Below, piece after piece: positions 5,631 through 24,383 of a stretch of 26,482 nt of DNA (within the stretch, counting starts at the first letter, position 1; every line of letters starts with the position of its first letter). The notes beneath the pieces were generated by a model, which made no database searches, was not told the origin of the DNA, and saw only the letters and a list, made by a program, of their open reading frames with translations. The DNA is from a virus. A program made the position numbers and the translations under genes. The stretch spans positions 1-26,482 of the IMG/VR virus record IMGVR_UViG_3300029258_003539; one strand, given 5' to 3'.

Positions 5631-7973
5631 TTATGGTCCTAACCCCGTATCTGTCCCTACTGAATAGTAATCCTTGTACTTGTTGACGGACTTCTTCGCT
5701 GCCTTCTTTCGTTCGTACTCCTCCATCACCTGTGCGATCCAATCGCTGGCATCCTCTGTCGTGGCCACGTTGGCATACATAGAGAAGTTCATTCCACTGT
5801 TGGTAGATCCAAGCTGGATGCCAGATGATTCACTACCAAGACCAAGGCTCCCGCCCACCATATCCAATGCCCCGCTGATACCCGAAAAAGCCGGCTGTAA
5901 GGCCATGGTCAACGAGCCTATACTCGACAGCCAGGGCTGCATGTAGGCCATAAACTTATTAACATTGAAGCTCTTTATATAGTCGATGGCCTTTCCCCCA
6001 GGCCCATACTTCCCACCATAGGGAAGACCGATCTTCCCCATCTCGGAGGCCATCTCGAATGCCTTACTAAAACCTTCCTGGAACGGTTTAATGATGCCCT
6101 GTATGACGGACGAGGACAGCATGGCTTCTATCATTCCGCCCTTGACCGCATCATAGACACTCTCTTTCAGACCCCTGGTGAAAGAGGTGAAGTCCCCACT
6201 GTCTATTGCATCGGTGAATGCCCCAGATATGATACTAGAGATGAAACCCATGGTTTCTCCGGTCTGCGTCTCATATTGGCTTATGAGCCTCTCGGTCTTC
6301 CGGGTCCTCTTCTCCACATGCCTGCGGTGCTTGTTGGCTTTGGCCTGCTCTAAAGCTTGTATCCCCATCATGCCAACAGCGGCTACTCCCCCAGCAACCA
6401 TCATTCCAGTGCTTTTAGTAACACCTAACAATCCCCCAATGCCCTTACCAGCCCAGTCCATGACCTTCTTTCCAACCATTGATCCGGCCATGCTAGCCAT
6501 CGGCTGTGCTATTGCTCCTAATAGTCCTTTCCCTATCCCCCCGAGTCCCTTGAAGTTCCCACTCATCAGATCCTGGAAGAACTTGTTCCAGACATCTGTA
6601 ATATTATCCAGCTGCTCCTTGGTGATGTCCTTTATTTCCTCGGTCCATGGGGTGACGGCCTCTTGGGCATTGATCCTGGCCATGCCGGCCTGCTGTTGGG
6701 CTTTAGTGCTGGTTCCCACCCCAGTAGTCCACCCAGTGCCCCACCGCTGCCACATATCAGGAGCAGCCTTTCCATAACCATGCTCCTGCCTCCACCAGGC
6801 ATCCATATTGGTGGCCTTCTCATAGAATGTAGGCCTCTTCTTGGTTATGGTAAGCTTGGTTCGTCCACCACCACCTTTAGTTCCTCCTATTGAGGCTACA
6901 TAATCATTGGCTGCCTTTCTAGCCAGTTCATCAGAACCGGTCTGCATAAAGACCTTCCAATAGATAGTATCCCAATTAAAGAATTTAGCCAGTGGATAGG
7001 CATATTTTTCGTTATACCACTGCTTGAACTTCTGCCATTTATTATTGGCTGTGGCTATTAATCCCATAGCCTTGGCGATGCCCTCCATAATATCTCTGAA
7101 GGTCTTCCAGGCATTCAAGGCCGACTCGGATATAATCTCCTGATTCGCTATGGCCCATTCACGGAATTGAAATACCATACTTTTAGCGTCTGATACTATA
7201 TCCTTGACTATTGGTAGGAAATACTCACCAATAATGGTTTTTGTATCTACGATATAACGCTTAAAGGACAGGATCTGCTTACCGGCGGTGGACATAGCCG
7301 CCTCGTAGGCTCCCTGTATCTTTTCGCCCTTTTCGAAGACCTCGTTGGTCCTCGCCTGCTGCTTTTCTAGGGCATCTAGATCCTCTACATTCTTGTTTAG
7401 GGTCTCAGCAGTCTTCTTATAGGCCTTTTCGAAGTCCACCTGAAGGCCGATCATCCTCAGGACCCTTGGTTGTGCGGTCACCAAACCGTGTATCAACCGT
7501 TCGAAGGATTCCGTGGAGTTTATATTCCCGATTACGGCGGCATCCTGTGCAATTCTTGCCAATCTATGAGCCTTGGCCAGGTCCACCTGAGCTTGTATCA
7601 ACCGGGCGGTCATCTGTCGGGAGATATTCATTTCGATGCCAGCGTCCTGGATAGCATATGCAGCCCCCAGCACCTGTTCCTTCGAATATCCGGCGGTCTT
7701 GCCCAATTGCTCAAGGACTACGCCCAGGGTCTCCCACCTGGCGCCGAGTAAGGCTGATTCCTTCACCAGTCCGGCGAATGTCCTGGTTAACCGGGCTGTG
7801 CCGAGGGCAATCCCCATGGCTATGGCGGCCTTGGCGACCTTGCCCATCACGGAGCTGGTTTTTGTCAGATGTGTATTTAAAGCCTTGGTCTGTCTGATAG
7901 CCGACTGCGTACCCGTATTATACTTCTTGGTATCAAGGGCGAGTTCCGCTACCATGCTCCCGAGTTTGCGCAT
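5631..7973 (-). CDS. Tail tape measure protein
   Basis: This 780-residue protein determines tail length and is threaded through the tail tube. The N-terminal 300 residues are helical with long charged heptad-like stretches. Residues of about 485-560 are Gly/Ala/Met-rich and hydrophobic (for example GLLGAIAQPMASMAGSMVG), typical of tape measures, which must cross a membrane on ejection. It begins directly after the tail chaperone stop (TAGATG), with an AAGG motif in the A-rich end of that gene. At about 1.5 angstroms per residue it would predict a tail a little over 110 nm. The position between the chaperone pair and the tail-tip genes supports the call. Confidence 0.88.
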   Translation of the reverse strand: MRKLGSMVAELALDTKKYNTGTQSAIRQTKALNTHLTKTSSVMGKVAKAAIAMGIALGTARLTRTFAGLVKESALLGARWETLGVVLEQLGKTAGYSKEQVLGAAYAIQDAGIEMNISRQMTARLIQAQVDLAKAHRLARIAQDAAVIGNINSTESFERLIHGLVTAQPRVLRMIGLQVDFEKAYKKTAETLNKNVEDLDALEKQQARTNEVFEKGEKIQGAYEAAMSTAGKQILSFKRYIVDTKTIIGEYFLPIVKDIVSDAKSMVFQFREWAIANQEIISESALNAWKTFRDIMEGIAKAMGLIATANNKWQKFKQWYNEKYAYPLAKFFNWDTIYWKVFMQTGSDELARKAANDYVASIGGTKGGGGRTKLTITKKRPTFYEKATNMDAWWRQEHGYGKAAPDMWQRWGTGWTTGVGTSTKAQQQAGMARINAQEAVTPWTEEIKDITKEQLDNITDVWNKFFQDLMSGNFKGLGGIGKGLLGAIAQPMASMAGSMVGKKVMDWAGKGIGGLLGVTKSTGMMVAGGVAAVGMMGIQALEQAKANKHRRHVEKRTRKTERLISQYETQTGETMGFISSIISGAFTDAIDSGDFTSFTRGLKESVYDAVKGGMIEAMLSSSVIQGIIKPFQEGFSKAFEMASEMGKIGLPYGGKYGPGGKAIDYIKSFNVNKFMAYMQPWLSSIGSLTMALQPAFSGISGALDMVGGSLGLGSESSGIQLGSTNSGMNFSMYANVATTEDASDWIAQVMEEYERKKAAKKSVNKYKDYYSVGTDTGLGP

Positions 7974-9235: not shown

Positions 9236-10858
9236 TTATACAGGCATCGGCCAGTTCGAGCTACTTGAGGAGCTCTCACTCGAGGAGCTACTCACGCTAC
9301 TACTTGAGCTACTCTCAGAGCTGCTGCTTGAGCTACTCTCTGAAGAACTGCTTGAACTTCTAGATGAAGAGCTCTTACTTGAACTACTCTGACTACTACT
9401 TGATTGTGAAGAACTACTCGAACTACTTTCAGAACTCGAAGAACTACTCTCAGAGCTAGAAGAACTTTCTGAACTCGAAGAACTGCTCTCCGAGGAACTG
9501 CTTGAGCTTCTAGATGAAGAGCTACTCTCACTTGAGGAGGAACTACTCTCAGAAGAGCTACTTGTAGAACTACTAGATTCCGAGGAACTGCTACTTACAC
9601 TCGAGGAGCTACTCACGCTACTACTTGAGCTACTTACACTTGAAGAACTACTGGATTCTGAACTACTCGAACTACTTTCTGAACTCGAAGAACTGCTCTC
9701 CGAGGAACTGCTCTCTGAGGAACTGCTACTCTCAGAGGAAGAACTACTCTCAGAGGAACTCGAAGATTCAGAAGAACTACTCGCAGAACTACTAGATTCC
9801 GAACTACTACTTGAACTCTCAGAGGAACTACTTGCTGAACTTGAAGATTTTGAAGAACTAGATGAGCTCTCACTTGAGCTGCTACTCTCTGAGGAACTGC
9901 TCGATTCTGAACTACTAGAACTACTCTCAGAACTTGAGGAACTACTCTCACTTGAGCTGCTACTCTCAGAACTACTACTTGAACTCTCAGAAGAACTACT
10001 ACTTGATTCTGAACTCGAACTACTCTCACTCGAGCTACTGCTCTCAGAACTACTAGATGAGCTTTCACTTGAACTACTACTTGACTTCGAAGAACTGCTA
10101 CTCTCTGAGGAACTGCTACTCTCTGAACTACTCGAGGAACTACTAGATTGAGAACTACTACTAGAGCTCTGGCTTGAAGAACTACTCTTAGAACTACTAG
10201 ACGAACTACTTTCACTCGAACTACTCGTAGAACTCGATGATTCTGAACTTGAAGAACTGCTTTCACTCGAACTACTCTCGCTAGAAGAGGAGCTACTCTT
10301 GCTCGAAGAAGAGCTCTTACTTGAGGATGAACTGCTCTCTGAACTGCTTGAACTACTCTCTGAAGAACTACTACTCTCACTTGAACTACTCGAACTCTCG
10401 GAACTACTGCTTGAACTCTCTGAAGAACTAGAACTACTTGAGCTACTTGAGCTACTTTCACTTGAAGAACTACTTGAATATTTAGAACTAGAAGAAGAAC
10501 TCTGTGAACTTGAAACACTACTAGAACTACTTGGATTAACTACCGTTACATTATTAGAACAGACATTACACCAGGCCCACCCATTCCACATATAGCAGGC
10601 CGAATCATGAACAGCATCGAAATCCACCAGAAGGGGTGAATTCAGAACATGATTGGTAATCGTCAAGCGTGCTCCATTCGTCGCATCGCTCATCCATATA
10701 CATTTCGTCTGCCCCCCAAAATCTCCATCCGGCAGAGTACAGTTAGGGGTATCTGAACCGGAATCGATCTCAGACTCACCGTAATTATTAAGGATCGTTC
10801 CGTTATACCTAACCAACTCATAATGCCAACAGGAAGGAGGCGTTATTTCAATCGACAT
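9236..10858 (-). CDS. Mucin-like Ser-rich repeat virion protein
   Basis: This 540-residue protein has two parts. Residues 1-109 form a possible folded domain with six Cys (10, 40, 53, 88, 97, 100) and Trp/Tyr-rich ends. Residues 110-534 are almost entirely Ser runs of three to eight, each broken by a single residue, most often Glu, also Lys, Gln, Val, Thr, Ala or Arg. It ends NWPMPV. AGGAGG sits 5 bases before the ATG. It lies between the tail terminator region and the tail tube gene, so it is probably a virion component, such as a tail or capsid fibre. Ser-rich tracts of this kind are classical O-glycosylation acceptors in bacterial Ser-rich adhesins, and a glycosyltransferase island lies in the same operon. 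Its exact role is unknown. Confidence 0.85.
   Translation of the reverse strand: MSIEITPPSCWHYELVRYNGTILNNYGESEIDSGSDTPNCTLPDGDFGGQTKCIWMSDATNGARLTITNHVLNSPLLVDFDAVHDSACYMWNGWAWCNVCSNNVTVVNPSSSSSVSSSQSSSSSSKYSSSSSSESSSSSSSSSSSSESSSSSSESSSSSSESSSSSESSSSSSESSSSSSKSSSSSKSSSSSSESSSSESSSSSSESSSSTSSSSESSSSSSSKSSSSSQSSSSSSQSSSSSSSSESSSSSESSSSSKSSSSSSESSSSSSESSSSSESSSSSESSSSSSESSSSSSESSSSSESSSSSSESSSSSSESSSSSESSSSSESSSSSSKSSSSASSSSESSSSSSESSSSASSSSESSSSSESSSSSESSSSSESSSSESSSSSSESSSSSSESSSSSSVSSSSSSVSSSSSVSSSSSESSSSTSSSSESSSSSSESSSSSRSSSSSSESSSSSSESSSSSESSSSSSESSSSSSSQSSSSQSSSSKSSSSRSSSSSSESSSSSSSESSSSSSVSSSSSESSSSSSNWPMPV
9257..10531 (-). repeat. Long Ser-rich low-complexity coding repeat
   Basis: About 425 codons encode degenerate units such as SSSSSE. 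AGT/AGC and TCN serine codons alternate irregularly, so the DNA is not a simple tandem repeat even though the protein is. This composition keeps other frames open, producing long spurious Leu/Glu-rich and Val/Arg-rich frames. Confidence 0.95.
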
Positions 10859-12685: not shown

Positions 12686-13305
12686 GCCCAGCCCACCACC
12701 TTCCGTCTATACCTATCTATAACGTTTTTCTGCCATTCCTCCTTTAGATCACCTCGGCTGTAGCTATAGTTTCCGATCCTCTCACTTTTAAATCCCAGAT
12801 TCTTCCGATGACTGTAGACCCATCCGACCAGGCTATTGCAGAGCAGTTTCAGATCATCCAACTCCTTAGTCCCAGAGGCATACCCGGCATTAAAAGTCAC
12901 CCTAACATTTTTAATTCCGACATCGAAGCCGTAGTCATAGAAAAGCATCCCACGGCTCTTATAAATCACATAGCCAGTGGAGCCATAGTAGTCTGTGTCA
13001 GTGGCAGCAGTGACTGTATCTCCACTTATAACCAGGGTAGTCACGCTGTTTATCGGGTACTGCCTGAGGTGAAGCTTCTTCTTCCCGGTCCCATCATACC
13101 TGGCGTTCTCATAATCTGTATCAGGATCATAGTCCTGGGCCACCAGATTCCTGTCGGTCTCCTTTTCTATGAAACTACTACTCTGGTTGATCAGCTTCCT
13201 GAATAGCTCATGATCACTATCGTCAACATCGCTCAGTCCCAGGAACTCCTTCACGTCATCTATATCGGACAGGGCATTATCATTAAGAGTTGTTGGTACA
13301 CCCAT
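12682..13305 (-). CDS. Head-tail connector (gp6-like adaptor)
   Basis: This 207-residue protein has an N-terminal helical part characteristic of gp6-like/adaptor proteins (DIDDVKEFLGLSDVDDSDHELF, then a helix with NQSSSFIEKETDRNL), a beta middle (KLHLRQYPINSVTTLVISGD) and a helical C-terminus with KLLCNSLVGWVYSHRKNLG. Such proteins sit under the portal and connect the head to the neck. GGAGGAG lies 4 bases before the ATG, inside the end of the upstream GT9-like gene, which it overlaps by 23 bases. The sugar island is therefore joined tightly to the neck block. Confidence 0.8.
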   Translation of the reverse strand: MGVPTTLNDNALSDIDDVKEFLGLSDVDDSDHELFRKLINQSSSFIEKETDRNLVAQDYDPDTDYENARYDGTGKKKLHLRQYPINSVTTLVISGDTVTAATDTDYYGSTGYVIYKSRGMLFYDYGFDVGIKNVRVTFNAGYASGTKELDDLKLLCNSLVGWVYSHRKNLGFKSERIGNYSYSRGDLKEEWQKNVIDRYRRKVVGWA

Positions 13306-14425
13306 AGGTCTCCTCCATCAATTCTTTCTTCCATGGTCTCCAGTGGACAAACTTCATCCTTTTTACTGCAAGCTGCTCGGATAGTGAACCTGAAAAATCA
13401 GATTTGATCAGCTCGGGAAGGTACTCCCGGACCTCGGTAAACACCATCTCAGGCTTCAGGGCCTCCATACACTTCCACTCCTCACAGACGTGGAACCTCG
13501 GGCTGGCCTGGCAGGGAGCACACGGCATCGGACTCCTTATGATCCTATGATCCTTATTGTAAGGACCATTCTTACTGACCAGAGTAGGCCCGAATAGTAC
13601 TATCATCGGGATATCATGAGCATCAGCCACATGCATCAGGCCGGTGTCCGTAGTGATGAATAGGTGGCACTGCCTAAGCATATGGATGGTTTCCATCATA
13701 TTCATATTATTCACGCAGTCCACCACATTGTAGGCCCTCTCCGACATCTCCCTGCCCCATTTCTTCTCCCGGTCTCCTTTTCCGAACAGGAAGATCCTAA
13801 ACTTGCTATGTCCGAAGAATCGGTTCAAAAGATCGATCAGCTCGCCGAAATAGGGCCAGCCCTTCCTCTCCCACTTCCAAGTAGAGCCCTCAAATAGGCC
13901 ATTACACAGTCCTACTTTCAGGCTCAGCATATCTTTGTTGGTGGGATTCTCATAGATATTCAGACTTCTCTGACCCTTCGGACAGTACAGGGAGGGGACA
14001 TCCTTAATGTATCCCAGCCTGTAGACCTCGTTCATGTAGGAGTCTACCTCGTTCAGCTTCTCTGCTCTCCAATTTACTGGCTCAGCGTCATATCCTGCAT
14101 ACTTCTCGAAGTAGTAGTAGGCATCCGATGTCTCGCCATGCCTCGAGTAGAACAACTGCTCATACTTATCCTTATTGAAGGTATTATCGAATTCGACTAT
14201 TTCGTTTACCAGGGGCCATTTGTTGCACAGCTCCCTCACGGAATCGGTCCGGCTGTCTGACCAATTAGGATCCAGGACTATGTCGACTTTGGCATTGTGC
14301 ATTTCGCACAGGGCCTTTATCGCCGGAGTCAGCATGATGAAATTCCCGATCCCATTCCTAAAGTAAACAGCCACTAAGTTCTCAGGAGTACTTCCAGGGA
14401 TCTTCCTTGTCCTTCTCTTAGGCAT
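13283..14425 (-). CDS. GT9-family (heptosyltransferase-like) glycosyltransferase
   Basis: This 380-residue protein matches the ADP-heptose:LPS heptosyltransferase family (GT9, GT-B fold). The N-terminal domain has VYFRNGIGNFIMLTPAIKAL, the family's glycine-rich start, then AKVDIVLDPNWSD. The C-terminal domain has the donor-binding signature FITTDTGLMHVADAHDIPM followed by IVLFGPT (about 250-280). A Cys-rich segment (CAPCQASPRFHVCEEWKC) follows. GT9 enzymes add heptose or related sugars to an acceptor from a nucleotide-sugar donor. In a phage head operon the acceptor is unknown: virion protein or host surface polysaccharide. Its start overlaps the preceding GT4-like gene by 8 bases. Confidence 0.88.
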   Translation of the reverse strand: MPKRRTRKIPGSTPENLVAVYFRNGIGNFIMLTPAIKALCEMHNAKVDIVLDPNWSDSRTDSVRELCNKWPLVNEIVEFDNTFNKDKYEQLFYSRHGETSDAYYYFEKYAGYDAEPVNWRAEKLNEVDSYMNEVYRLGYIKDVPSLYCPKGQRSLNIYENPTNKDMLSLKVGLCNGLFEGSTWKWERKGWPYFGELIDLLNRFFGHSKFRIFLFGKGDREKKWGREMSERAYNVVDCVNNMNMMETIHMLRQCHLFITTDTGLMHVADAHDIPMIVLFGPTLVSKNGPYNKDHRIIRSPMPCAPCQASPRFHVCEEWKCMEALKPEMVFTEVREYLPELIKSDFSGSLSEQLAVKRMKFVHWRPWKKELMEETYGCTNNS

Positions 14426-15521
14426 CCGGAGCCCCGTACCTGCGGCCTCGGGCTATCATGGACCTTCGTCTATTGATATCCTCTGTAGATTGAAAGACGT
14501 TGTTATCCCTCTTCCTGGATAGCAGTCCCTTAAACAGATCTACCATCATCTTCATATTGATTTTCCGATCCCCCAGGCTTCTTATCTTCTTTCTTCCCTT
14601 CATCGATATAGTCTCCAGCTTCTTACGTCCCTCTTTTGATCCAACAAGGCTCAGGATCTTCTCCACAGAATCCGACACGGACTCTATAATAAAACCCGTC
14701 TCTCCATCCTTCAGGTAGTCGACCATCCCGCTCAGTTCCTCGTCTGCCCCGAATAATACGCATCCGCAGAGCATAGCCTCCTCGGGAGGCATATGGAGCC
14801 CCTCACTCTTAGTTGGAGCCAGCCATAGATCAACCTTGTTGTAGAAGACCTTAAGCTCATCTGGTGTTGGCTGCATCAAGTAGCTACTGCATTCCAGATC
14901 CTCCGGCTTCTCCTCCGTCCCGAATAGATGAAGCCTGACGTTCAGGCCCTGATCTTTCAATCCCTTGACTATCTCCGGAACCCACTCAAACCGCTTCCTT
15001 GGTTTACCATTATACAGAGCCCCGATGGACCACTGCTTCTTAACCGCCCAGTTCCTAGTCCTCGTCGGCTTAAAGAGATCAGTATCTGTCCCCGGCCTAA
15101 TGATCGGGCAGAACTTATTCATCCTTGACTTAATAAACTTCTGTAGACACAGGCCATTAACTATCAGATTTATATTCGAGTTCCTGTAATTGGCAAATAG
15201 CTGATTCTCGTCAGCGTTCCAAGTCTCATGTGCCCGTATCCACCAGTACTTCTCGCCCTTCTCTACCGGGGCTCTTACTACATTCCTGACTGACTTGACA
15301 CCGGTGGCTATTAGTATATCAGCGTCCGGGTATTCCAAAGTAGATCCAGTCTCGAACCACTTGGGTCCATTAAGCTTAAACCAAGTAAACTCATTAGGCA
15401 TGTTGGATACTACAAAGACCTGGTGGCCCAATGAACTCAGGGTATTGGCCGAATGGAACAGTGTGGCCGTACCCCCATTATTCCCGGCGCCTACGCTCTG
15501 AAGATTGAATGTAATTTTCAT
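14418..15521 (-). CDS. GT4-like glycosyltransferase
   Basis: This 367-residue GT-B fold glycosyltransferase starts MKITFNLQSVGAGNNGGTAT, a typical N-terminal acceptor loop (GG-x-A), continues with a Rossmann-like strand (HQVFVVSN), and carries the GT4 donor motif at about 239-250 as APTKSEGLHMPPEEAMLCGC, where the two Glu residues lie about seven apart. A C-terminal basic extension of about 40 residues (RRRSMIARGRRYG) is unusual and may bind a partner or membrane. A GAGGAG site lies 6 bases before the ATG. The enzyme transfers a sugar from a nucleotide donor; donor and acceptor cannot be told from the sequence. It is followed closely by the GT9-like gene. Confidence 0.82.
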   Translation of the reverse strand: MKITFNLQSVGAGNNGGTATLFHSANTLSSLGHQVFVVSNMPNEFTWFKLNGPKWFETGSTLEYPDADILIATGVKSVRNVVRAPVEKGEKYWWIRAHETWNADENQLFANYRNSNINLIVNGLCLQKFIKSRMNKFCPIIRPGTDTDLFKPTRTRNWAVKKQWSIGALYNGKPRKRFEWVPEIVKGLKDQGLNVRLHLFGTEEKPEDLECSSYLMQPTPDELKVFYNKVDLWLAPTKSEGLHMPPEEAMLCGCVLFGADEELSGMVDYLKDGETGFIIESVSDSVEKILSLVGSKEGRKKLETISMKGRKKIRSLGDRKINMKMMVDLFKGLLSRKRDNNVFQSTEDINRRRSMIARGRRYGAPDA

Positions 15522-15531
15522 CTTATTCTCC

Positions 15532-16203
15532 TCATAAAATTTTATTTGAATTTTTCAGCCCATCATAATCATAACTCAACTTCAACAGGCTGATCGGGCA
15601 TCCTCTCCACCGGTACATGAAAGCCCTGGAGGAGTTCACCCTTCCCCATCTCTTTCCGATCTTACTCCTTGTTATCTCACTTGTATAAAGAGGATCCAAA
15701 TTGCAGAATTCGAAGATCCTTCTAAGCGTATAGAAAGTCCTTGTGACCAATGACTCATAGGAGACGATCAGGGTATCCTTTATCTTGCTTAGATCCTTTA
15801 TTATTGTCGGGATAACGAAGTCCTGAATCCTCATGATCTCCTCTTCATTGTAATTATAGCCCCTCTTCCTTCCAAACTTGCCATTACTGATGGCCACATC
15901 GATCGGGTGCCTGACTAGGTATATGATCCTGGTCCTATCCTTCCATAGTTTTCTCCACTCCTTGATATAGTGAAGTATACCATTAGCTGAGTTTGAGAAG
16001 AAAGGGACCTTATCTCCCCATGTGGTATTATATGGGTCCACGATCTTATTCTTCCTTAGATAGGATTCTCTCTGCCGCTCGTCAAAGCCCTTGTTTAGAA
16101 TCTTCTCTTCATGAAAGATCTTTATTATATCAGGATGCTTCTCCATCAGCTCCCTAGTTAACGTGGTCCCACTACGCTGAAAACCGGCGATCAATATAAT
16201 CAT
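15532..16203 (-). CDS. Sulfotransferase-family protein
   Basis: This protein has 223 residues from the ATG at 16203, which has GAGGAG about 8 bases upstream; the frame also has a TTG one codon earlier. It has the PAPS-binding signatures of the sulfotransferase superfamily: the 5'-phosphosulfate loop GFQRSGTT near the N-terminus, WGDKVPF with the conserved Lys about 80 residues in, and the 3'-phosphate motif YLVRHPIDVAISNGKF (about 124-140). It is basic and short compared with many carbohydrate sulfotransferases, so some acceptor-binding elements may be missing. It overlaps the end of the upstream glycosyltransferase by 32 bases. The target is unknown; sulfated glycans on the virion are one possibility. 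Confidence 0.82.
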   Translation of the reverse strand: MIILIAGFQRSGTTLTRELMEKHPDIIKIFHEEKILNKGFDERQRESYLRKNKIVDPYNTTWGDKVPFFSNSANGILHYIKEWRKLWKDRTRIIYLVRHPIDVAISNGKFGRKRGYNYNEEEIMRIQDFVIPTIIKDLSKIKDTLIVSYESLVTRTFYTLRRIFEFCNLDPLYTSEITRSKIGKRWGRVNSSRAFMYRWRGCPISLLKLSYDYDGLKNSNKIL

Positions 16204-17230
16204 CAATTCTGCTCCTCAGGTAGTCGGCTGCATGCTTAGTAGTCAGATTGTTTTCATAGTACTTCCTTGGGCTATACTGATCCCGACTAACGAGGACCTC
16301 CTCTACGGTCTCCCAGAAATTCACTTTACTAGCTATCTTTCCTGTCTCCGGCGTAATATACTTCTTATATAGAAACTCAAGTTCATTCAGTACCACTATC
16401 GGAATATCAGAGGCCAGTAACTCAGGAATTACTCTTGGATTCGAATCCCAGGACATACCGTAGAATCCAGTCTTTCCCTCAGATGCTACAATACCTACCT
16501 CGCACTTCTGCATATTCCTACTGACTTCCTTTCTTAATACTCTCTTACTCTTTACATTAGCTGGCACTTCTATATTCTCGTCCATTACCGGGCCACCTAA
16601 GTTCAATACCCTAAGATAAGAAGGAACAGTAGAATATATAAATGAATGACCCTTCCGATTTGAGCTTCTTCCATCGGCCGGATAGCAGACATTGTACTCC
16701 TTCACTACATCATCCATCTTATAGAATAGGTTATCGGCGGCCGGCTTAAAGAATATCTGAACCTCAGCGTTCGGAAATTCCCTCTGTGTAATTTCCTTTT
16801 GTCTCATGGAGTCAACTAGGATCATATCATAATCCATGAAGGACTTGAAGATAGGCAGAAATCTCTTTCCGGCCCCATAGTAGATCTTGATAGCCTTCTT
16901 GTACCTCTGTAGTACCGGATGATAGTCCCTAAATCCTCCCCTGCAGAATATTATGTCGGGCTCTATGCCACTCTCGAAGTTGTCAAACCAAGTCGTAAAG
17001 TATTCTTTTAAGTTGGGCGTGTACTTCTTCTCTCGGTCTTCCTGCCAGTAGTACTCTTCACCCTTTTTCGGATCACCCCTCCAGTACCAGATCTCCCCCT
17101 TATCTTCTCTCTTTAATAGTCCATTAAAGAGATGGGTCCACATATCATCACATTCCTCAAGAGAATCAAATATGATCTCACTTGGATCCCTGTCCTGAGG
17201 AACCTGGCCCCTCAGCATCAGAAAGTTCAT
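16172..17230 (-). CDS. Probable GT-B glycosyltransferase (CgeB/GT1-like)
   Basis: This 352-residue protein has a GT-B-like layout. The N-terminal half holds a Trp/Tyr-rich part (WYWRGDPKKGEEYYWQ) and a Rossmann-like strand (PDIIFCRGGFRD). The middle has YDMILVDSMRQKEI, then EVQIFFKPAADNLF. The C-terminal half has YNVCYPADGRSSNRKGH, then VGIVASEGKTGFYGMSWDSNPRVIPELLASDIPIVV, the donor-domain pattern of family 1/CgeB-like enzymes (given here only as key blocks). The start overlaps the WbqC-like stop as ATGA and its end overlaps the sulfotransferase start. I regard the GT call as likely but the family as unproven. Confidence 0.68.
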   Translation of the reverse strand: MNFLMLRGQVPQDRDPSEIIFDSLEECDDMWTHLFNGLLKREDKGEIWYWRGDPKKGEEYYWQEDREKKYTPNLKEYFTTWFDNFESGIEPDIIFCRGGFRDYHPVLQRYKKAIKIYYGAGKRFLPIFKSFMDYDMILVDSMRQKEITQREFPNAEVQIFFKPAADNLFYKMDDVVKEYNVCYPADGRSSNRKGHSFIYSTVPSYLRVLNLGGPVMDENIEVPANVKSKRVLRKEVSRNMQKCEVGIVASEGKTGFYGMSWDSNPRVIPELLASDIPIVVLNELEFLYKKYITPETGKIASKVNFWETVEEVLVSRDQYSPRKYYENNLTTKHAADYLRSRIDDYIDRRFSA

Positions 17231-17913
17231 TTCTCTCCTCTGATAATCCCCAAACTACTTCCACCATGATTAAACAATAGATCCAGTATAGACATATGAG
17301 GCTGGAACTCCCCATACTGCTGCTTGTACTCTGGATGGTTAAAGCTCTCAAAGATTACCTTTATACCGGCATCCTTATAGGCATCAAGGTCCATATAGTT
17401 CTTCCCTCCAGGACCAGATAGATAGGCGTCCCCGCCGACAGCCTTGATTAATTCTATGATTCTTTTATCCGGCTGCCTCGTCTTCACCTCCAGGTCGCTA
17501 GCCTGGTACTCGTCAGTGACGATCCCCAGTAATTCCTTGATCCTATTGATGACCTCTATATTTAGAATGGACAGCCTATCCCACTTCTCGCTGAAGGCCC
17601 ACCTGATTGCAGACATAATATCATTGTAGTACTCGGACTTACTGTAATACTTCTCTATAGACTTACGGTGCTTACTCTGCCACTTGATTCCATCGTCTAT
17701 CTCTATATCCTTTATAAGCGACTTATAGCTATTGTAGACTACGGGGACAGTCAGCCAGTGCCATCCATTCTCGCTCTTGATCCTGTTCCTATTCTGGAAC
17801 TCACTCTTCCTGAACTGCACCGTATCCAAATGGATGAAGGCGTCTGCCCTATCCATCTTGTAGAAGTATCCCAGCCAGGGCATGTACTGTGGCTGATGTA
17901 TTGCTACTATCAT
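17227..17913 (-). CDS. WbqC-like protein
   Basis: This 228-residue protein begins MIVAIHQPQYMPWLGYFYKM, the hallmark of the WbqC family found in O-antigen and other surface-sugar gene clusters. It continues with FIHLDTVQFRKSEFQNRNRI and, later, a glycine-rich segment AYLSGPGGKNYMD (about 170-183), both typical of the family. Length is normal for the family. The biochemical role of WbqC proteins is not well defined; an aminosugar acyl-transfer function has been suggested. Start and stop codons overlap the neighbouring genes as ATGA, so it is co-translated with them. Its presence supports surface-sugar biosynthesis as the purpose of the island. Confidence 0.88.
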   Translation of the reverse strand: MIVAIHQPQYMPWLGYFYKMDRADAFIHLDTVQFRKSEFQNRNRIKSENGWHWLTVPVVYNSYKSLIKDIEIDDGIKWQSKHRKSIEKYYSKSEYYNDIMSAIRWAFSEKWDRLSILNIEVINRIKELLGIVTDEYQASDLEVKTRQPDKRIIELIKAVGGDAYLSGPGGKNYMDLDAYKDAGIKVIFESFNHPEYKQQYGEFQPHMSILDLLFNHGGSSLGIIRGEK

Positions 17914-18617
17914 TTCTTCGGCTCCTCTAGTTTTCCCCTCACTCCGTATTCGACTATGTCAGCCACAACCTTCCCCATCTTCCACTTCTTCCATTTTATA
18001 TTCCTATTGATCGCATCCCACTGGGTCGTAAAGAAATGACGGACTGCTACATTAATGTCTCTCATATTGGGAACGGCTTTCTCATTATCCGTTATCCCAG
18101 GATTATGAGGATCATATAGAAATCCAGTATGCGGAGGCAATGCAGGCACATGCTGCCTCACCCGATCATTATATTGATAGGCGCACTCATGACATCGACA
18201 GACATATTCGAGCATAGCCTTTAGGTAGCTCTCGCTTATATAGGTCGACTTCATGTTTCTGTAAGCCCCAATAGATTGATTCTTATGCTTGACATCGTAG
18301 AACTCCAAGACATCGAAATCCTTTATATAATTCTCTATCTCCTTAAATGGATCTCTCTCTGGATGCATAAACTTCATATCATCATGCATAAAGAAGACTC
18401 CACTCTCTCCATTCCAGGCATTCTTCAGGTAGAAATCATACTTATACATATCTAATCCTATGTTAGCAGCCGGAATAAAAGTGACATTCTTATATGATTC
18501 AGCGGGATTCTCTCTATCGCCACTGGCAATCGAATGAATATTATGGTCAGGAGCATATCTATCTAAGACCTGATAGACATCTTCCCAGAAGTAATGACCT
18601 ACAGCGCATACGTTCAT
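17910..18617 (-). CDS. Probable glycosyltransferase (GT-A-like, HDD motif)
   Basis: This protein has 235 residues if translation starts at MNVCAVGHYFW. The frame extends 5 codons further upstream to a GTG, but the GGAG motif lies about 9 bases before the ATG at 18617. It has alternating hydrophobic strands and helices, an internal GVFFMHDDMKFM block whose DD may coordinate a metal and nucleotide sugar, as in GT-A folds, and a helix-rich end. A block SIASGDRENPAESYKN precedes it. I do not recognise the family with certainty. Its neighbours (WbqC-like, GT-like genes) and the ATGA overlap with the next gene point to the same pathway. Confidence 0.6.
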   Translation of the reverse strand: MNVCAVGHYFWEDVYQVLDRYAPDHNIHSIASGDRENPAESYKNVTFIPAANIGLDMYKYDFYLKNAWNGESGVFFMHDDMKFMHPERDPFKEIENYIKDFDVLEFYDVKHKNQSIGAYRNMKSTYISESYLKAMLEYVCRCHECAYQYNDRVRQHVPALPPHTGFLYDPHNPGITDNEKAVPNMRDINVAVRHFFTTQWDAINRNIKWKKWKMGKVVADIVEYGVRGKLEEPKK

Positions 18618-18644
18618 CTCAAATTTCTCCACTTCTTACTGTTT

Positions 18645-19196
18645 TTATAGTGCAAGGCCTTGGCAGTCAATCCACCAATCAGTTCCAGTATGTTGTCTCC
18701 TCTTTCTAAAATCCCTTAAGACCTTCCAATTCAGCTTCTCCTTGACTTGCTTCTTTATATAGTTCAAGAAGTTATATGTCCTATCATTATACACAAAGCC
18801 CCAGAAGCAGGCGATGACCGGCATCTTATCGAAATGATCCCTTGTGCTGAGAAGGACATCCCCATCGAATAGGTCAAACACCCTGAATGGATCTTCTTTT
18901 ACGACCATATCGGCGTCCATCGAGAGTACCCTGTCACCCTCTTTATAATCAAATTTTAAATAACTCTCTACCCTTATCTGGGCTCTCTTCCCGTCCCAAT
19001 CCCTATCGTTGTAGGTGATCTTCTTTTTTGGCCCAGAGAGACTATCGTAGAAAGGGATATTTCCAAGTTCAACTAGATGAAGCTCAAATTTAGAATACTT
19101 ATATAGGCTCTCTATAAGATCCTGGAAAGGCTTCTGGTAGTTTGAGCTAACCATCACATGAATGATATTACGGCTTAAACCATTTTCCATCTTCAT
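18645..19196 (-). CDS. Probable GT-A glycosyltransferase (GT8-like)
   Basis: This 183-residue protein resembles the N-terminal part of a GT-A transferase: a strand and helix with IIHVMVSSNYQKPFQDLIES, a second strand with FELHLVELG, and the metal-binding DxD block VLSMDADMVVKEDPF at about residues 90-105, followed by a Phe-rich segment with VIACFWGFVYND. It is short for GT8, so the C-terminal domain may be reduced. The start is uncertain: ATG at 19196 has only a weak motif, and a second ATG at 19190 is also possible. It overlaps the upstream sulfotransferase-like gene by 29 bases. Confidence 0.65.
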   Translation of the reverse strand: MKMENGLSRNIIHVMVSSNYQKPFQDLIESLYKYSKFELHLVELGNIPFYDSLSGPKKKITYNDRDWDGKRAQIRVESYLKFDYKEGDRVLSMDADMVVKEDPFRVFDLFDGDVLLSTRDHFDKMPVIACFWGFVYNDRTYNFLNYIKKQVKEKLNWKVLRDFRKRRQHTGTDWWIDCQGLAL

Positions 19197-19713
19197 CTCG
19201 TATGAACTGCCTGATACTTGGAATATTAAGATTGAGTCCTGACCACTCCGATAAACTCGTAAGAGCCCTCTCAGGCTTTACCATCAGTAGTGACGTAGAT
19301 ACGACTATAAAATCATTTCCAGCTACGTCATAAAAGATCTTCCTGTATTCTGCCTTTGCCGCCTCCCTCGGATCGTCCATGGAGCAGTGATTTCTGGACA
19401 CCATACTCCTGGTATGACTGTAGAGTTCCCTGACAGTAATTATATACCTGACGTTAAATCCCAGGTCCTTAAGGCCATCCCTCGACAGTGATAGTGGCTC
19501 CCACCTACTCTCGTCCCTCTCATGTGGCATACTCCTCCAGATAACAATGTCTCCATTTTTCGGGAGCCTATCCTTTATGGTCTCTACCAAGATAGAATTA
19601 TAGATCCTTCTGAGACCAAACAGTGGATCAGCTACTCCTGCGGACCTGAAAATCTTGGTCATCAGCCTCGTACCGCTCGACTCTGGTCCTATAACGAAAT
19701 AGGCAGTCCTCAT
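19168..19713 (-). CDS. Sulfotransferase-like P-loop protein
   Basis: This 181-residue protein starts MRTAYFVIGPESSGTRLMTK, where PESSGTR fits the 5'-phosphosulfate-binding loop of sulfotransferases. Further on, RYIITVRELYSHTRSMVSRN (about 90-109) fits the 3'-phosphate motif with Arg and Ser. It then has a strand with DFIVVSTSLLMVKPE. It is shorter than the second sulfotransferase-like gene and lacks the obvious WGDK block. The start overlaps the upstream glycosyltransferase as ATGA. The function is predicted from two motifs only; another P-loop transferase or kinase is possible. Confidence 0.68.
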   Translation of the reverse strand: MRTAYFVIGPESSGTRLMTKIFRSAGVADPLFGLRRIYNSILVETIKDRLPKNGDIVIWRSMPHERDESRWEPLSLSRDGLKDLGFNVRYIITVRELYSHTRSMVSRNHCSMDDPREAAKAEYRKIFYDVAGNDFIVVSTSLLMVKPERALTSLSEWSGLNLNIPSIRQFIRDEDGKWFKP

Positions 19714-20819
19714 ACTAACCTATCCAATCCATGATAATAATACCATATGGCCTTCCAGAATGAGTAAGGCCCCTGCTCTATAAAGTACCGGAACTTATCC
19801 CTTGACCACTCCTCGTCCTCTATGTGAAACACCTTGAAACTCTTTATTCCCATATTCTCGTTCATGATGGGCTTACACCCGCACAGGAGCCCCTCGGCTA
19901 TCGTCCTACCACAGGCCTCATAGGCCCTTGGCAAATGCATTGTATAAGTGGCCCTGTTGTATATCTCCGGAAGCTGTTCGTTCTCCACTAAGGGAAAGAC
20001 CTTCACGTTGTCCAGCTGCTTCATCGCGTCAGCTATGTTCTGGTGCTCCCTTGTGTAGATCTCGAACTTCAATTTCTTCTTCCCCATGATGAACTGGAGC
20101 ACATTGTAATAGCCCTTCTGGGCGTATAATCGCCCGCAGGTGTTGACAACCAGCTTGGGGTCTCTCTCTATACCCTCCAGAATCCTGAACTTCCTTGTAT
20201 CAATCGCTGGAGGTAATAGATAATAAGGATCGATCCCATCCCCCAGCTTTTCCCTATGATTCCTCTCCTGAAAGGGACTGATGAACACATTTAAAAAGGA
20301 ATGCTTAAACAACAGTCTAGCCAATTTGATCCTGCTATCGGCTCCTATAATCTCCCTGTGATCATGCTCATATTTGACATAGGGCTTTTTGTACTCGAAG
20401 ATCAGATCCAGTATAAAGTGGAACTGATCAGGCTTAAAGAAGAAGAAGTTGTTGATCACCAGGAAGTCGCAGGCTATCAGGGCTTTCTTGTCGAAGTTAC
20501 TCGGCGTGAAGGTCTGGAACAGATAGCCGAACTCCCTTCCGGCCCTCTTCACCACCTCATTGCTCAATTCGGCCCCACCGTAAACCTCCGTGTCCTGTAC
20601 CCATCCTACTAAAGGTCTCTTCCCCACCAGCTTCCGGCTTTCGGGTCTCTCCCTCTTTTCCTTCTCCCTTAGATTCTTATCAACCAGAGGATTATCGAAG
20701 CTGGTCACCGGGATGGCCTTCCCCTGTCTCATCAGGTTGGCTCCGGCCGTATCCGACACCTCATAGAGGTCCAGGCCGAACCGCTGGATCATGGCCCTAT
20801 CTGTATATCGAATCTTCAT
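19710..20819 (-). CDS. GT4-like glycosyltransferase with unusual N-terminal extension
   Basis: This 369-residue GT-B-type protein opens the sugar island. Residues 1-40 (MKIRYTDRAMIQRFG...GKAIPV) look unlike a GT start and resemble small phage head-module domains; the transferase begins at about residue 70 with GWVQDTEVYGGAELSNEV (GGAE loop). The donor-binding domain has VVNTCGRLYAQKGYYNVLQF and then a pattern with HLPRAYEACGRTIAEGLLCG (about 300-320), where the two Glu residues are about seven apart, as in GT4 enzymes. The next gene starts in its stop as ATGA. Donor and acceptor are unknown. Confidence 0.82.
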   Translation of the reverse strand: MKIRYTDRAMIQRFGLDLYEVSDTAGANLMRQGKAIPVTSFDNPLVDKNLREKEKRERPESRKLVGKRPLVGWVQDTEVYGGAELSNEVVKRAGREFGYLFQTFTPSNFDKKALIACDFLVINNFFFFKPDQFHFILDLIFEYKKPYVKYEHDHREIIGADSRIKLARLLFKHSFLNVFISPFQERNHREKLGDGIDPYYLLPPAIDTRKFRILEGIERDPKLVVNTCGRLYAQKGYYNVLQFIMGKKKLKFEIYTREHQNIADAMKQLDNVKVFPLVENEQLPEIYNRATYTMHLPRAYEACGRTIAEGLLCGCKPIMNENMGIKSFKVFHIEDEEWSRDKFRYFIEQGPYSFWKAIWYYYHGLDRLV

Positions 20820-20945
20820 AAAACACCTAAAATAAGCCTACTTTCCTAAAACTATATAATATCCCATTACTTTCCTTAAAACATCGATGTACGACCCCTT
20901 TACGGAGTTCTAAGGCGGTTTCTAGAGAATCCTCTGCCCCTGTTT
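20820..20945 (-). other. Gap between the Gly-rich mini-gene and the sugar island
   Basis: The part closest to the glycosyltransferase is AT-rich (for example ATATTATATAG) and could contain a weak promoter, but no convincing -35/-10 pair was found. One minus-strand frame is open from 20997 to 20827 without any ATG, GTG or TTG; see the rejected list. Confidence 0.4.
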
Positions 20946-21077
20946 TCAGCAGGTGCCTCTTCTTCCACCCGTTTTCGGCCCACGGCCCTTGCCGGAATTA
21001 TTCCCTTTCCCCCCTCCGTGTCCGTCTCTCGGTCCTCCCGATCCCTTCGGTGGTCCGCTTCCGTCTCCCTTAGGCAT
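20946..21077 (-). CDS. Gly-rich mini-protein (DUF5320-like pattern)
   Basis: This 43-residue protein starts at MPKGDGSGPPKG. An in-frame ATG two codons upstream is less likely because AAGGGG then lies only 2 bases away, against 8 for this start. It is almost wholly Gly, Lys, Arg, Pro and Ser and ends GGRRGTC, so it is basic and disordered. The opening GDGSGPPKGSG and the closing RGPKTGGRRGTC recall the DUF5320 pattern (GDGTGP...GPMTGRGAGYC). It lies between the capsid accessory genes and the sugar island, with a strong terminator-like hairpin upstream. Function is unknown; it might bind nucleic acid or a virion protein. Confidence 0.6.
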   Translation of the reverse strand: MPKGDGSGPPKGSGGPRDGHGGGKGNNSGKGRGPKTGGRRGTC

Positions 21078-21133: not shown

Positions 21134-21592
21134 TTAACCGGTAGCCGGATTCTTATTGTAAGTAACCGTGCTCTCGTTGGCTGTCTGGTAGATCGGCTCA
21201 CGCCTTGACCTATCAAAGTTGCCGTGGCAAGTAAAGGCCAGACTGGCCCCCGCTACCGTCATCACTAAGTGTATGTATCTCTGGAGGTCCCTGATCTCGG
21301 CGATCCACAGAGTATTGGTATCCCAAGCCATCTGACTACAGGTGGCAAAGGAAGTCAGAGCTCCTGAAACATCCCCGGTATGGATCACTATATCCAGGGT
21401 AGCACCCGTTGTAATGGTACCACTCATATTTACAACCAGGAGCATGTTGGTGGGGATCTCCCTACCACTCCAGACCGCTCCGGCCGGTCCGGCCCTGAGG
21501 TCAAACTCGGTGCTGGTATAGGCAGCAGCAGTCCTCGTGACCGGATGCTCAAAAACTACTATTCGCTCATTGGCGCATCTATCTCTTCTCAT
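21134..21592 (-). CDS. Probable capsid decoration protein, copy B
   Basis: This 152-residue beta-rich protein is closely related to copy A: roughly 60% identity by eye, with identical ends (MRRDRCANERI at the start, SRREPIYQTANE and TVTYNKNPATG at the end). The middle has GREIPTNMLLV, GATLDIVIHTGDVSG and IAEIRDLQRYI in conserved order. Two copies right after the capsid gene suggest small, abundant capsid proteins that cover or stabilise the shell. The ATG at 21592 has AAGGAGG about 10 bases upstream, better placed than the GTG three codons before it. The family is not named; a Bbp16-like stabilising protein is one guess. Confidence 0.6.
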   Translation of the reverse strand: MRRDRCANERIVVFEHPVTRTAAAYTSTEFDLRAGPAGAVWSGREIPTNMLLVVNMSGTITTGATLDIVIHTGDVSGALTSFATCSQMAWDTNTLWIAEIRDLQRYIHLVMTVAGASLAFTCHGNFDRSRREPIYQTANESTVTYNKNPATG

Positions 21593-21692
21593 AACTATCA
21601 CCCCTCCTTAGGGTCTTCTTTCCGTTTGCAGTTTGATCAGTGCGGGCCGGAACGAAAGGTCAAGAAAACAACCCACACTGATGCACGATTGC
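21593..21692 (-). promoter_or_regulatory. Structured leader of decoration gene, copy B
   Basis: This is a 100-nt leader, homologous to 22162-22261 with no gap. On the minus strand an 11-bp stem pairs ATCAGTGTGGG with CCCGCACTGAT (21672-21682 and 21636-21646), including one U-G pair, around a 25-nt loop. A second small hairpin, ACCCT/AGGGGT (21600-21614), holds the AAGGAGG site. The loop contains CCTT, which could pair with the AAGG of the ribosome binding site. A translational control element is inferred. Confidence 0.7.
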
Positions 21693-21699
21693 GTTAATA

Positions 21700-22161
21700 T
21701 CATCCAGTGGCCGGGTTCTTGTTATAAGTAACCGTAGCCTCATTAGCAGTCTGGTAGATCGGCTCCCTTCGGCTCCGCTCCAGATTACCAGTCAGTCCAA
21801 AGTATAGCGTCTGAGTTCCCACCGTATAGGCAATACGCACATACCTCTGTAGATCCCTGACCTCAGCGATCCAAATGGTGTTCGTACTATGGGCCATTTG
21901 GCTTATGGTCGCGTAGGAGGTCAATGTCCCCGACACGTCACCAGTATGAATGATCAGGTCCAAAGTGGCCCCGGCAGTGACCGTGGTAGAAAAAATCGCC
22001 ACCAGGAGCATGTTGGTTGGAATCTCCCTTCCAGCCCATATGGCCCCAGCCGGTCCCTGACGCAGGTCCACCTCGGCGCAGGTCCAACCGCTTCCGGCCT
22101 GCACTGAAGTCGGTGGCTTAAACTGTATGATTCTCTCGTTAGCACATCTGTCTCTTCTCAT
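21700..22161 (-). CDS. Probable capsid decoration protein, copy A
   Basis: This 153-residue beta-rich paralogue of copy B has the same start and end sequences and the same conserved blocks (AEVDLRQGPAGAIWAGREIP, then LDLIIHTGDVSG and IAEVRDLQRYV). Its stop lies just upstream of the leader of copy B. The two copies arose by tandem duplication that included the leader, and they have diverged in the N-terminal loop and in the strand near residue 115. The ATG at 22161 has an AAGGAGG site; the GTG at 22170 lies within a hairpin and is less likely. Capsid role inferred from position and copy number. Confidence 0.6.
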   Translation of the reverse strand: MRRDRCANERIIQFKPPTSVQAGSGWTCAEVDLRQGPAGAIWAGREIPTNMLLVAIFSTTVTAGATLDLIIHTGDVSGTLTSYATISQMAHSTNTIWIAEVRDLQRYVRIAYTVGTQTLYFGLTGNLERSRREPIYQTANEATVTYNKNPATG

Positions 22162-22261
22162 AATTATCACCCCTCCTTAGGGTCTTCCTTCTGTTCTTGG
22201 TTTAATCGGCGCAGGACGAAACGAAGGGTCAAGAAAAACGCCTACGCCGATGCACAATTGC
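22162..22261 (-). promoter_or_regulatory. Structured leader of decoration gene, copy A
   Basis: The 11-bp stem pairs ATCGGCGTAGG with CCTGCGCCGAT (22241-22251 and 22205-22215). Compared with copy B, three base pairs differ and all three are compensated, while no pair is broken. By hand count 21 of 100 positions differ, six of them in the stem arms. The HNH gene upstream ends inside this stem (stop 22242-22244). Confidence 0.72.
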
Positions 22262-23000
22262 TGTTGAAAGTGAAAAACTCCAACCAGGACTCCCTATTAA
22301 AGTTCACCCTGGTATTACAGCCCCTGCATAGAGTCAAAAGATTGTTGGGGCTACAGTTCTTCTTATCGTAATCCATATGGTGGATACAGAGATCTTCCTT
22401 GGAGCTACAAAGCTGGCAGGTGTAATCGTCCCGCCTCTTGATGTCCTCTTTGAACTCCCTGTCGGCCCATGCGTCACAATAGGGCTCCACGGATATTCCG
22501 CCTTGCCAGTTGAAATGGTTCTGGCCGCTAAGCTTCAAAGAATGTTCAGGTCGAGGGACTCCCTTAATGCTATCATAATACCATTGAGTAGATTTCCTCT
22601 TCTTAGCTAATGCTTGAGGACTAGTCATTTGTTTAACCCAATTTTTCTTATACTCCTTAGTACTACTTCTTATTTTAGCAGCTTTGGACATCTTCATTCT
22701 TGTTTCTTCAGAAAAGATTTTCCCTCTATGAGCTTTTGAGATTTTTTTCTTATGTTCCTCTGTAAATTTCTTTCCACTCATTTTAGAGGCCTGCTTTTGT
22801 ATTCCAGGATGGTCCTTCTTAGTCAATCCCTTATTCCAACCTATACAACCTGTACTTCTTTCACTTGTTAGCTTTCTATAAATAGGACATCTCATATAAT
22901 GAGCTTCACAGCACCACTTCTTAGCAGTTGTAAAGTAATACTTGGCTACTCGCCCACACCCATAATCACAAAATCTCGGAACTTTCTTTCTCTTTCTCAT
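22242..23000 (-). CDS. HNH homing endonuclease with NUMOD3 motifs
   Basis: This 252-residue free-standing homing endonuclease has an N-terminal Cys/His-rich finger-like part (CDYGCGRVAKYYF, CCEAHYMRC), then NUMOD3-type DNA-binding repeats (GWNKGLTKKDH, KKFTEEHKKKISKAHRGK, IFSEETRMKMSKAAK; about 55-110), and a C-terminal HNH domain (about 190-235): CQLCSSKEDLCIHHMDYD, then NNLLTLCRGCN, with Cys-x2-Cys pairs and the His-His pair. It would nick or cut a specific DNA site in phage relatives lacking it. It lies between the capsid gene and the decoration gene, and its last codons lie in the leader of copy A. The N-terminal half is visibly AT-rich compared with its neighbours. Confidence 0.9.
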   Translation of the reverse strand: MRKRKKVPRFCDYGCGRVAKYYFTTAKKWCCEAHYMRCPIYRKLTSERSTGCIGWNKGLTKKDHPGIQKQASKMSGKKFTEEHKKKISKAHRGKIFSEETRMKMSKAAKIRSSTKEYKKNWVKQMTSPQALAKKRKSTQWYYDSIKGVPRPEHSLKLSGQNHFNWQGGISVEPYCDAWADREFKEDIKRRDDYTCQLCSSKEDLCIHHMDYDKKNCSPNNLLTLCRGCNTRVNFNRESWLEFFTFNSNCASA

Positions 23001-23024
23001 TTTTTACCTCTATTCAGGTTAATT

Positions 23025-23081
23025 CTTAGGCAAGAGTAGGAGGAATAGCTCCTACTCTACCCTGTGCACGGGCTGCCTAAG
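23025..23081 (-). other. Possible three-way-junction RNA element after the capsid gene
   Basis: On the minus strand an outer stem, CTTAGGCA with TGCCTAAG (8 bp), encloses two hairpins: CCC-GTGCACA-GGG, and a perfect 10-bp stem AGAGTAGGAG with CTCCTACTCT and 6-base loop. There is no T-run after it. It begins 16 bases after the capsid stop and lies before the HNH gene. It could stabilise or process capsid mRNA. Confidence 0.65.
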
Positions 23082-23096
23082 TATCAGTTATTAAAA

Positions 23097-24383
23097 TTAC
23101 GAAGTACCTACGGCTGAGTTCAAAATTACGAAGGCTTCGGGGCAAGCTGGGATTCCATCCAACCGGCCACACACACGTAACGCCGTCTTATTATTACGAA
23201 AAAGGTAATGTCTACTTACGTCCATCGTAAACCTCTTACGATCACCGATGTAGTACCACGACCAGTTACCCAGGATAACATCCCCCGTGGTACCCTTGGT
23301 ATAGGTCTTGCCACCAGAGTGAATGACGGGGTATCCCAAGAGCATCGAGACTCGTTTCGCCCCGGCCCCAGGTGCCGTTTCCTGATAGAACTCCTGGAGG
23401 ATCAGATTCGCTGTCGTGTCCCTCTCATCCCTGAGGTTATTCATACAGTCTTTGTTCATAAACCATACTGCCCCATCGTCAAAGACGCTCGGCAATCTGG
23501 TATCCATGTTGATCGCATCCCTAAACTCGAAGGAGTTAGCGTGCTGCCTGTTAGTCGACAAAACCGCAGGATCAGGAACCACGCCGAGGGGCTGTCTTGC
23601 ACCGTTACCGCGGATAAAGCTTCGATCCGTGTACCACACATAGGCCCTTCGGAAAAGCCCGGTAAGGAAGTTCATGATGTTGATCGAACTATCCTCAATC
23701 AGCGTGTCAGTAATCGCGGTGTACCCTGAGAGCTCATGAGCAATCAGTTCCAAGAACTCGAAGGTAGGCTCCGTAGAGGTTTTCTCCCCACCTTCCTCCG
23801 TCCAGGTAAAAGAAACACCGGCGAAGTGGTCGAAGTGCTCGTTTCGCGAGCTCTCGTCAGGCCTCTGGGCCAGCTTGGGCATACCCAATTTGTCCGTTCC
23901 CATCGGCCATACGGTCGCACGAGGCCACACAATGGCGGGCTCCTCTTCGTACTGGATCAGCATGGCTTGGAATTCTTCCGGTACCAAATAACCACCAGCT
24001 GTATCTGTATTCTCCTGCAACAGCTTGGAGTACTCGGGGTCCATGGCCCTTCCACTCTTCTGCGCCCTGATATACTCAGTAAAGGCCTTGCAGAAATTCT
24101 CCATCTCCGGAGACAGGCGAACCCACGGATTGCCCTTCCTCGTTAGATCTATAACAGACCCCTGGATCGTCTTAACTAAATTATATCCACCACCGATGTA
24201 ATTCATATCGGCGACTATTCCTGTGTTGGCCAATTTCTCGGCCGTTTTCTCACGGGTCCTTACTTCCTTATCCTGGTCCCTTAAAGCATCAAGCAATTTA
24301 GGCAGGTTCTCTTTAGTCCTCTTATCAATGAGGTCATCGAGAGCCTTTTTACTCAGTTTCTTAGTATCTTTCTCTTCTTCCAT
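23097..24383 (-). CDS. Major capsid protein, HK97 fold
   Basis: This 428-residue protein has a charged, coiled-coil-like N-terminal delta domain (about 1-60: KKLSKKALDDLIDKRTKE), followed by the family start of the mature shell GGYLVPEEFQAML (130-142). Further typical blocks are HELSGYTAITDTLIEDS (about 219-235), RSFIRGNGARQPLGVV (about 255-270) and the C-terminal KRFTMDVSRHYLFRNNKTALRV. The prohead protease would remove the delta domain during maturation. An AAGGAG site lies 8 bases before the ATG. The gene follows the protease after 32 bases, the usual order. Confidence 0.93.
   Translation of the reverse strand: MEEEKDTKKLSKKALDDLIDKRTKENLPKLLDALRDQDKEVRTREKTAEKLANTGIVADMNYIGGGYNLVKTIQGSVIDLTRKGNPWVRLSPEMENFCKAFTEYIRAQKSGRAMDPEYSKLLQENTDTAGGYLVPEEFQAMLIQYEEEPAIVWPRATVWPMGTDKLGMPKLAQRPDESSRNEHFDHFAGVSFTWTEEGGEKTSTEPTFEFLELIAHELSGYTAITDTLIEDSSINIMNFLTGLFRRAYVWYTDRSFIRGNGARQPLGVVPDPAVLSTNRQHANSFEFRDAINMDTRLPSVFDDGAVWFMNKDCMNNLRDERDTTANLILQEFYQETAPGAGAKRVSMLLGYPVIHSGGKTYTKGTTGDVILGNWSWYYIGDRKRFTMDVSRHYLFRNNKTALRVCGRLDGIPACPEAFVILNSAVGTS

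Follow-up and report, generated by a model that had tools for sequence, protein, structure and literature searches.

Two tandem cement-like genes in the virus record IMGVR_UViG_3300029258_003539 (26,482 bases, called the window here) are each directly preceded on the 5′ side by a 100-nt leader with a conserved, covarying stem, S1. We give about an even chance (roughly 0.5) to the reading that the leader acts in cis, as an element of the 5′ untranslated region that controls translation initiation of the cement gene; it would be a pseudoknotted operator or structural switch that sets the cement/capsid ratio, and its likeliest ligand would be either the cement protein or some other late protein of the phage. 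The genes lie on the minus strand, and the two cement-like genes are paralogs. The local features are as follows.

23097..24383 (-), major capsid protein gene, HK97 fold family (Pfam Phage_capsid, PF05065, 1.3e-39)
22242..23000 (-), HNH/NUMOD3 homing-endonuclease-like gene, after the capsid gene and before the leader
22162..22261 (-), upstream leader copy, before cement-like gene 1
22172..22178 (-), Shine-Dalgarno sequence AAGGAGG of cement-like gene 1
21700..22161 (-), cement-like gene 1, 153 aa, ATG at 22161
21593..21692 (-), downstream leader copy, before cement-like gene 2
21603..21609 (-), Shine-Dalgarno sequence AAGGAGG of cement-like gene 2
21134..21592 (-), cement-like gene 2, 152 aa, product sharing 68% identity with that of gene 1

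The elements of the stem and its loop in the two copies are:

22241..22251 (-), S1 5′ arm of the upstream copy, AUCGGCGUAGG
22228..22237 (-), conserved loop segment L1 of the upstream copy, UUUUCUUGAC, 10/10 identical between copies
22205..22215 (-), S1 3′ arm of the upstream copy, CCUGCGCCGAU
21672..21682 (-), S1 5′ arm of the downstream copy, AUCAGUGUGGG
21636..21646 (-), S1 3′ arm of the downstream copy, CCCGCACUGAU

The original prediction, which gave no strand, described the leaders as aligning without gaps at an offset of 569 and differing at 21 positions by hand count; they do so on the minus strand, and the recomputed difference was 21/100. The prediction also gave a stem of 11 bp in which three pairs had changed with compensation and no pair was broken; we found that 22 of 22 cells pair (columns 11-21 with 47-57), with double changes between the copies at columns 14/54, 16/52 and 19/49. 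The U-G pair is kept in both copies (columns 18/50), and the 25-nt loop does retain TTTTCTTGACC and TTCGTT. The 58-nt hairpins fold with z-scores of -3.3 and -4.0 against dinucleotide shuffles. For six random transitions in the 22 S1 bases, the probability that all pairs stay intact with three double changes was 0.0017, and when each leader was subjected to dinucleotide shuffling, 0.2-3.5% of the shuffles reached its best perfect helix.

The age of the duplication is the strongest single argument against chance for the likeness of the leaders. At fourfold-degenerate sites the paralogs are identical at 15 of 48 positions (31%), which is near saturation and close to random, and the leaders are identical at 79 of 100 (79%), a figure that gene conversion confined to the leader could inflate, but the leaders of other phages would then be unexplained. 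Because 79% stands against 31%, the leader has been under selection throughout. The Shine-Dalgarno region is unchanged between the copies (22/22), as is L1. Since the leaders belong to a tandem 569-nt repeat unit, their likeness might be ascribed to gene conversion or recent duplication alone, with the stem incidental. But the fourfold sites are saturated and the same structure is found with other stem sequences in three further lineages (L031, L038 and L039), so that this explanation is in effect refuted.

The products of the two genes resemble jelly-roll cement proteins such as that of BPP-1, judging from profile searches and a predicted structure. A profile of eight homologues matched one solved chain, the BPP-1 cementing protein 3j4u_H (E 8.6e-5). 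The predicted structure is a jelly roll (pLDDT 80) whose structural alignment with 3j4u_H gave Z 8.1 over 112 residues, and the top Foldseek match was a Carin1 phage capsid chain; the fold is supportive rather than specific, because several unrelated jelly rolls score equally high. Two PHROG families were matched, 427 and 5707, both of them carrying no function annotation, and a search of the phage record collection found no cement homologues. The likeness to the BPP-1 cement protein Bbp16 and PHROG 427 (PMC3863775) lies in the profile match, the jelly roll and the position of the gene after the capsid gene, which fits a cement role. Unlike Bbp16, however, the proteins here show low identity (16-18%) and miss the gathering cut-off of the Bbp16 family in Pfam (PF21190; 14.1 bits against 27.1, copy 1 only), and the gene is duplicated and carries an RNA leader.

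Related contigs in IMG/VR were reached via the capsid protein, and a homologue of the cement-like gene was found next after the capsid gene, or after an inserted gene, in more than 40 loci. The same type of leader precedes the orthologous gene in three close lineages, L031 (= L041), L039 (= L040) and L038, each with a perfect 12-bp stem of unrelated sequence and a 20-21-nt loop that contains the motif AAUCCUUUCCGUUUC or AAUCCUUUUGUUUC. L031 and L039 are nearly the same sequence, which leaves four independent leaders, two of which the window supplies. In the alignment of the five leaders, double changes were seen in 7 of 9 aligned S1 pairs, and the joint covariation score of S1 and the proposed second helix, S2, was higher than in all 500 shuffles and every slid register; this alignment puts the L038 stem one column off, which makes its percentage of paired positions too low. 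The stem did not vary without compensation in any of the three other leader sequences in which this was checked.

A covariance model gave strong matches only in the five leader loci and L040, and only before the cement-like gene among the 50 loci searched. Weaker matches (L070, L065, L057 and others) were ordinary hairpins without the loop and were rejected. Plain hairpins are found in the more distant L036, L054, L058, L065 and L070 at the same capsid-cement junction as the leader, but they differ from it in that the loop motif is not shared, the loops are short and the pairing with the tail is not conserved. Five other loci (L032-L035 and L043) have 18-24 nt between the capsid and cement genes and no leader, which means that the leader is dispensable for cement expression in general. 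The distribution of the leader class is narrow, and the remaining relatives have plain hairpins or no leader. Two pattern searches added no member: the loop motif over IMG/VR gave 28 matches, about the number expected by chance, with none in a comparable hairpin, and a combined loop-tail-Shine-Dalgarno pattern recovered L038 together with L166, which has neither the stem nor a comparable downstream gene and was rejected as a chance match.

The hairpins and short gaps of these relatives bear on a rather unlikely alternative, in which the leader is a passive structure that has no ligand (a shield for the 5′ end, an insulator or a ribosome standby site) and that makes a processed cement mRNA more stable and uncouples it from translation of the capsid gene. 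Simple unrelated hairpins stand at the same place in the five more distant loci, as if any barrier suffices, and the genes are tightly coupled in the lineages that have no leader. A barrier, however, needs neither a conserved L1 and loop motif nor a fixed spacing to the tail motif. The conservation of the unpaired L1 suggests a tertiary fold or a putative binding site, and so speaks in favour of a role beyond that of a barrier.

From sequence comparison, the leader is likely, but not proven, to be an H-type pseudoknot in which the S1 loop is paired with the tail, and the support for it is moderate. The proposed strands are:

22220..22227 (-), proposed S2 5′ strand of the upstream copy, CCUUCGUU
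22187..22195 (-), proposed S2 3′ strand of the upstream copy, AAC-A-GAAGG, with a one-base bulge
21651..21658 (-), proposed S2 5′ strand of the downstream copy, CUUUCGUU
21618..21626 (-), proposed S2 3′ strand of the downstream copy, AAC-G-GAAAG, with a one-base bulge

The tail AAC-GAARG complements the loop motif CYUUC-GUU and starts 9 nt past S1 in both window copies. The pairings are CCUUC-GUU/AAC-A-GAAGG in the upstream copy, CUUUC-GUU/AAC-G-GAAAG in the downstream copy, CUUUUGUUU/AAGCAAAAG in L038, and CUUUC/GAAAG in L031 and L039. Within the window 8 of 8 S2 pairs are present in each copy with one double change, and in all five leaders the core keeps 4 of 4 pairs, two of which show double changes. 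Column shuffles of the alignment gave P 0.002-0.004 for Watson-Crick pairs and 0.04-0.07 when G-U was allowed. The pairing energy alone was not significant because a pyrimidine-rich loop faces a purine-rich tail, so the support for S2 comes entirely from covariation. S2 has 8-9 bp, and in both window copies the pseudoknot ends 25 nt upstream of the AUG and 8 nt upstream of the Shine-Dalgarno sequence; L1 has 10-11 nt and is rich in U, while about 7-9 nt, rich in A, make up the strand that crosses S1. The geometry of the model is sensible, and short crossing strands also span an 11-bp stem in the IBV frameshift pseudoknot. An alternative 7-bp pairing in the window copies, UUUUCUU/AAGAAGA, was dropped after inspection showed that it is not retained in L031 or L038.

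The same loop could also be read as an anti-Shine-Dalgarno sequence, (A/U)CCYUU against AAGGA, that represses initiation and alternates with S2 as an on/off switch. UCCUU/AAGGA or CCUU/AAGG is possible in all leaders (-6.0 kcal/mol in L031 and -7.0 kcal/mol in L038). But the CCUU register of the upstream window copy is one base off that of the other leaders, whereas the S2 register is constant, and any C-rich stretch matches a Shine-Dalgarno sequence, so we consider this switch improbable.

A GC-rich hairpin between two late genes might also act as a transcription terminator or attenuator, or as an RNase III-type processing hairpin between the capsid and cement genes. This is very unlikely, since the window copies have no U-tract after S1, the search of the leader gave 0 terminator-like sites, the loop is 20-25 nt with a stem of only 11-14 bp and conserved loop and tail motifs, and the second cement gene is also preceded by a leader. 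The same search gave 0 sigma-70-like sites in the leader; the loop hexamer TTGACC, considered as a sigma-70 promoter, was dropped, as the leader has no promoter-like site and the other phages have TTAATCC. A riboswitch or self-cleaving ribozyme might further be suspected, given that the leader is probably pseudoknotted and that part of its loop is conserved, but Rfam, including its pseudoknotted ribozymes and riboswitches, gave no match, and a structural capsid gene is an unlikely target for a metabolite; we attach almost no weight to this explanation.

No covariance model of Rfam 15 matched the leader at gathering score, and a relaxed E-value returned chance-level hits far below gathering. 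With S1 covarying both in the window and across phages, the original prediction of a selected RNA structure of no recognised class holds; what it had left out were the cement-like downstream genes, the probable loop-tail pseudoknot and the narrow distribution. In the open-access papers searched, no comparable leader was found for a cement or decoration protein of any phage. We regard the leader as a probable pseudoknot of the phage-leader kind whose gene, architecture and lineage are new, and of which there are few examples so far.

Each cement-like gene has its own leader, the proposed pseudoknot ends 8 nt upstream of the Shine-Dalgarno sequence, and strong copies occur only before this gene in the loci searched, and from this we infer a cis-acting translation-initiation element. 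The loop of S1 (11-14 bp) would pair with the downstream A/G-rich strand to give the H-type pseudoknot, which as an operator or structural switch may tune the output of cement protein relative to capsid protein. By analogy, either the cement protein or a different late protein of the phage would be the regulator; we propose this because in T4 the gene 32 leader pseudoknot nucleates the binding of that gene's own product (PMC3014915, PMC535899). As the stop codon of the HNH gene (22244-22242) is inside the 5′ arm of S1 in the upstream copy, ribosomes terminating there would open the upstream stem. It is doubtful, but worth stating, that these leaders may represent a class of phage mRNA operators that is new: cement-leader pseudoknots, bound by the cement or capsid protein to set cement dosage and duplicated along with the gene.

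Like the gene 32 operator of T4, T2 and RB69, the leader would be an H-type pseudoknot in a phage 5′ leader, upstream of the Shine-Dalgarno sequence of its presumed target gene. A 2010 review of T4 considered the T4-type gene 32 pseudoknot as possibly the sole viral pseudoknot in translational autoregulation. In T4 the 5′ part also lies within the frame of segG, a homing endonuclease gene, and here the HNH gene ends inside S1; the parallel, although an analogy, is striking, and after T4 gene 32 this may be a second instance in which a homing endonuclease gene overlaps a leader pseudoknot. Unlike in T4, the target here is a cement-like jelly-roll protein and not a single-strand DNA-binding protein, S1 has 11-14 bp and its loop roughly 20-25 nt, where the T4 pseudoknot as a whole measures about 28 nt, and UUAAA repeats are absent between S2 and the AUG in both copies; protein binding here is a proposal.

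Tailed phages need matched amounts of capsid and cement proteins, which is mostly ascribed to gene order and ribosome-binding sites. In phage GP4, for example, 540 capsid copies go with 540 cement copies (PMC9698820). A conserved structured cement leader, present on both copies after an old duplication, is a concrete and testable candidate for dosage control at the RNA level.

Several minor observations were made around these genes. The capsid-cement junction looks like an insertion hotspot, because inserts are also present there in relatives, another endonuclease-like ORF in L053 and other ORFs in L072. Just past the capsid stop of L053, a hairpin (CCCGGTATTCTG...CAGAATACCGGG) reaches the AGG of the ribosome-binding site of the inserted endonuclease ORF, as if it held back translation of that ORF. 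At L035:5386-7464 (same contig as L044) a LAGLIDADG-like ORF (5853-6566) splits the capsid gene, which suggests an intron or intein; there was no Rfam intron match at gathering score. In the window, a long hairpin lies past the capsid gene and ahead of the HNH gene, at 23023-23065 (-), CUUAGGC...AGAGUAGGAG-CUAUUC-CUCCUACUCU-UGCCUAAG, whose sequence is unrelated to the leaders. Downstream of the second cement gene, a small glycine-rich ORF (MPKGDGSGPPKG...) at 20945-21076 (-) lies 3′ of a GC-rich hairpin (GGGGGCTGCTTCGGCAGCCTCC). Glycosyltransferase-like and other accessory-looking genes form a block (13283-20819, minus strand) inserted between the cement and head-tail connector genes; a glycosyltransferase search of viral contigs found none, and a glycosyltransferase adjoins the cement gene in L031 and L039 too. 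The tail-region proteins encoded at 2162-5629 and 9236-10858 (-) contain very long poly-serine repeats of the SSSSSE/SSSSSQ type.
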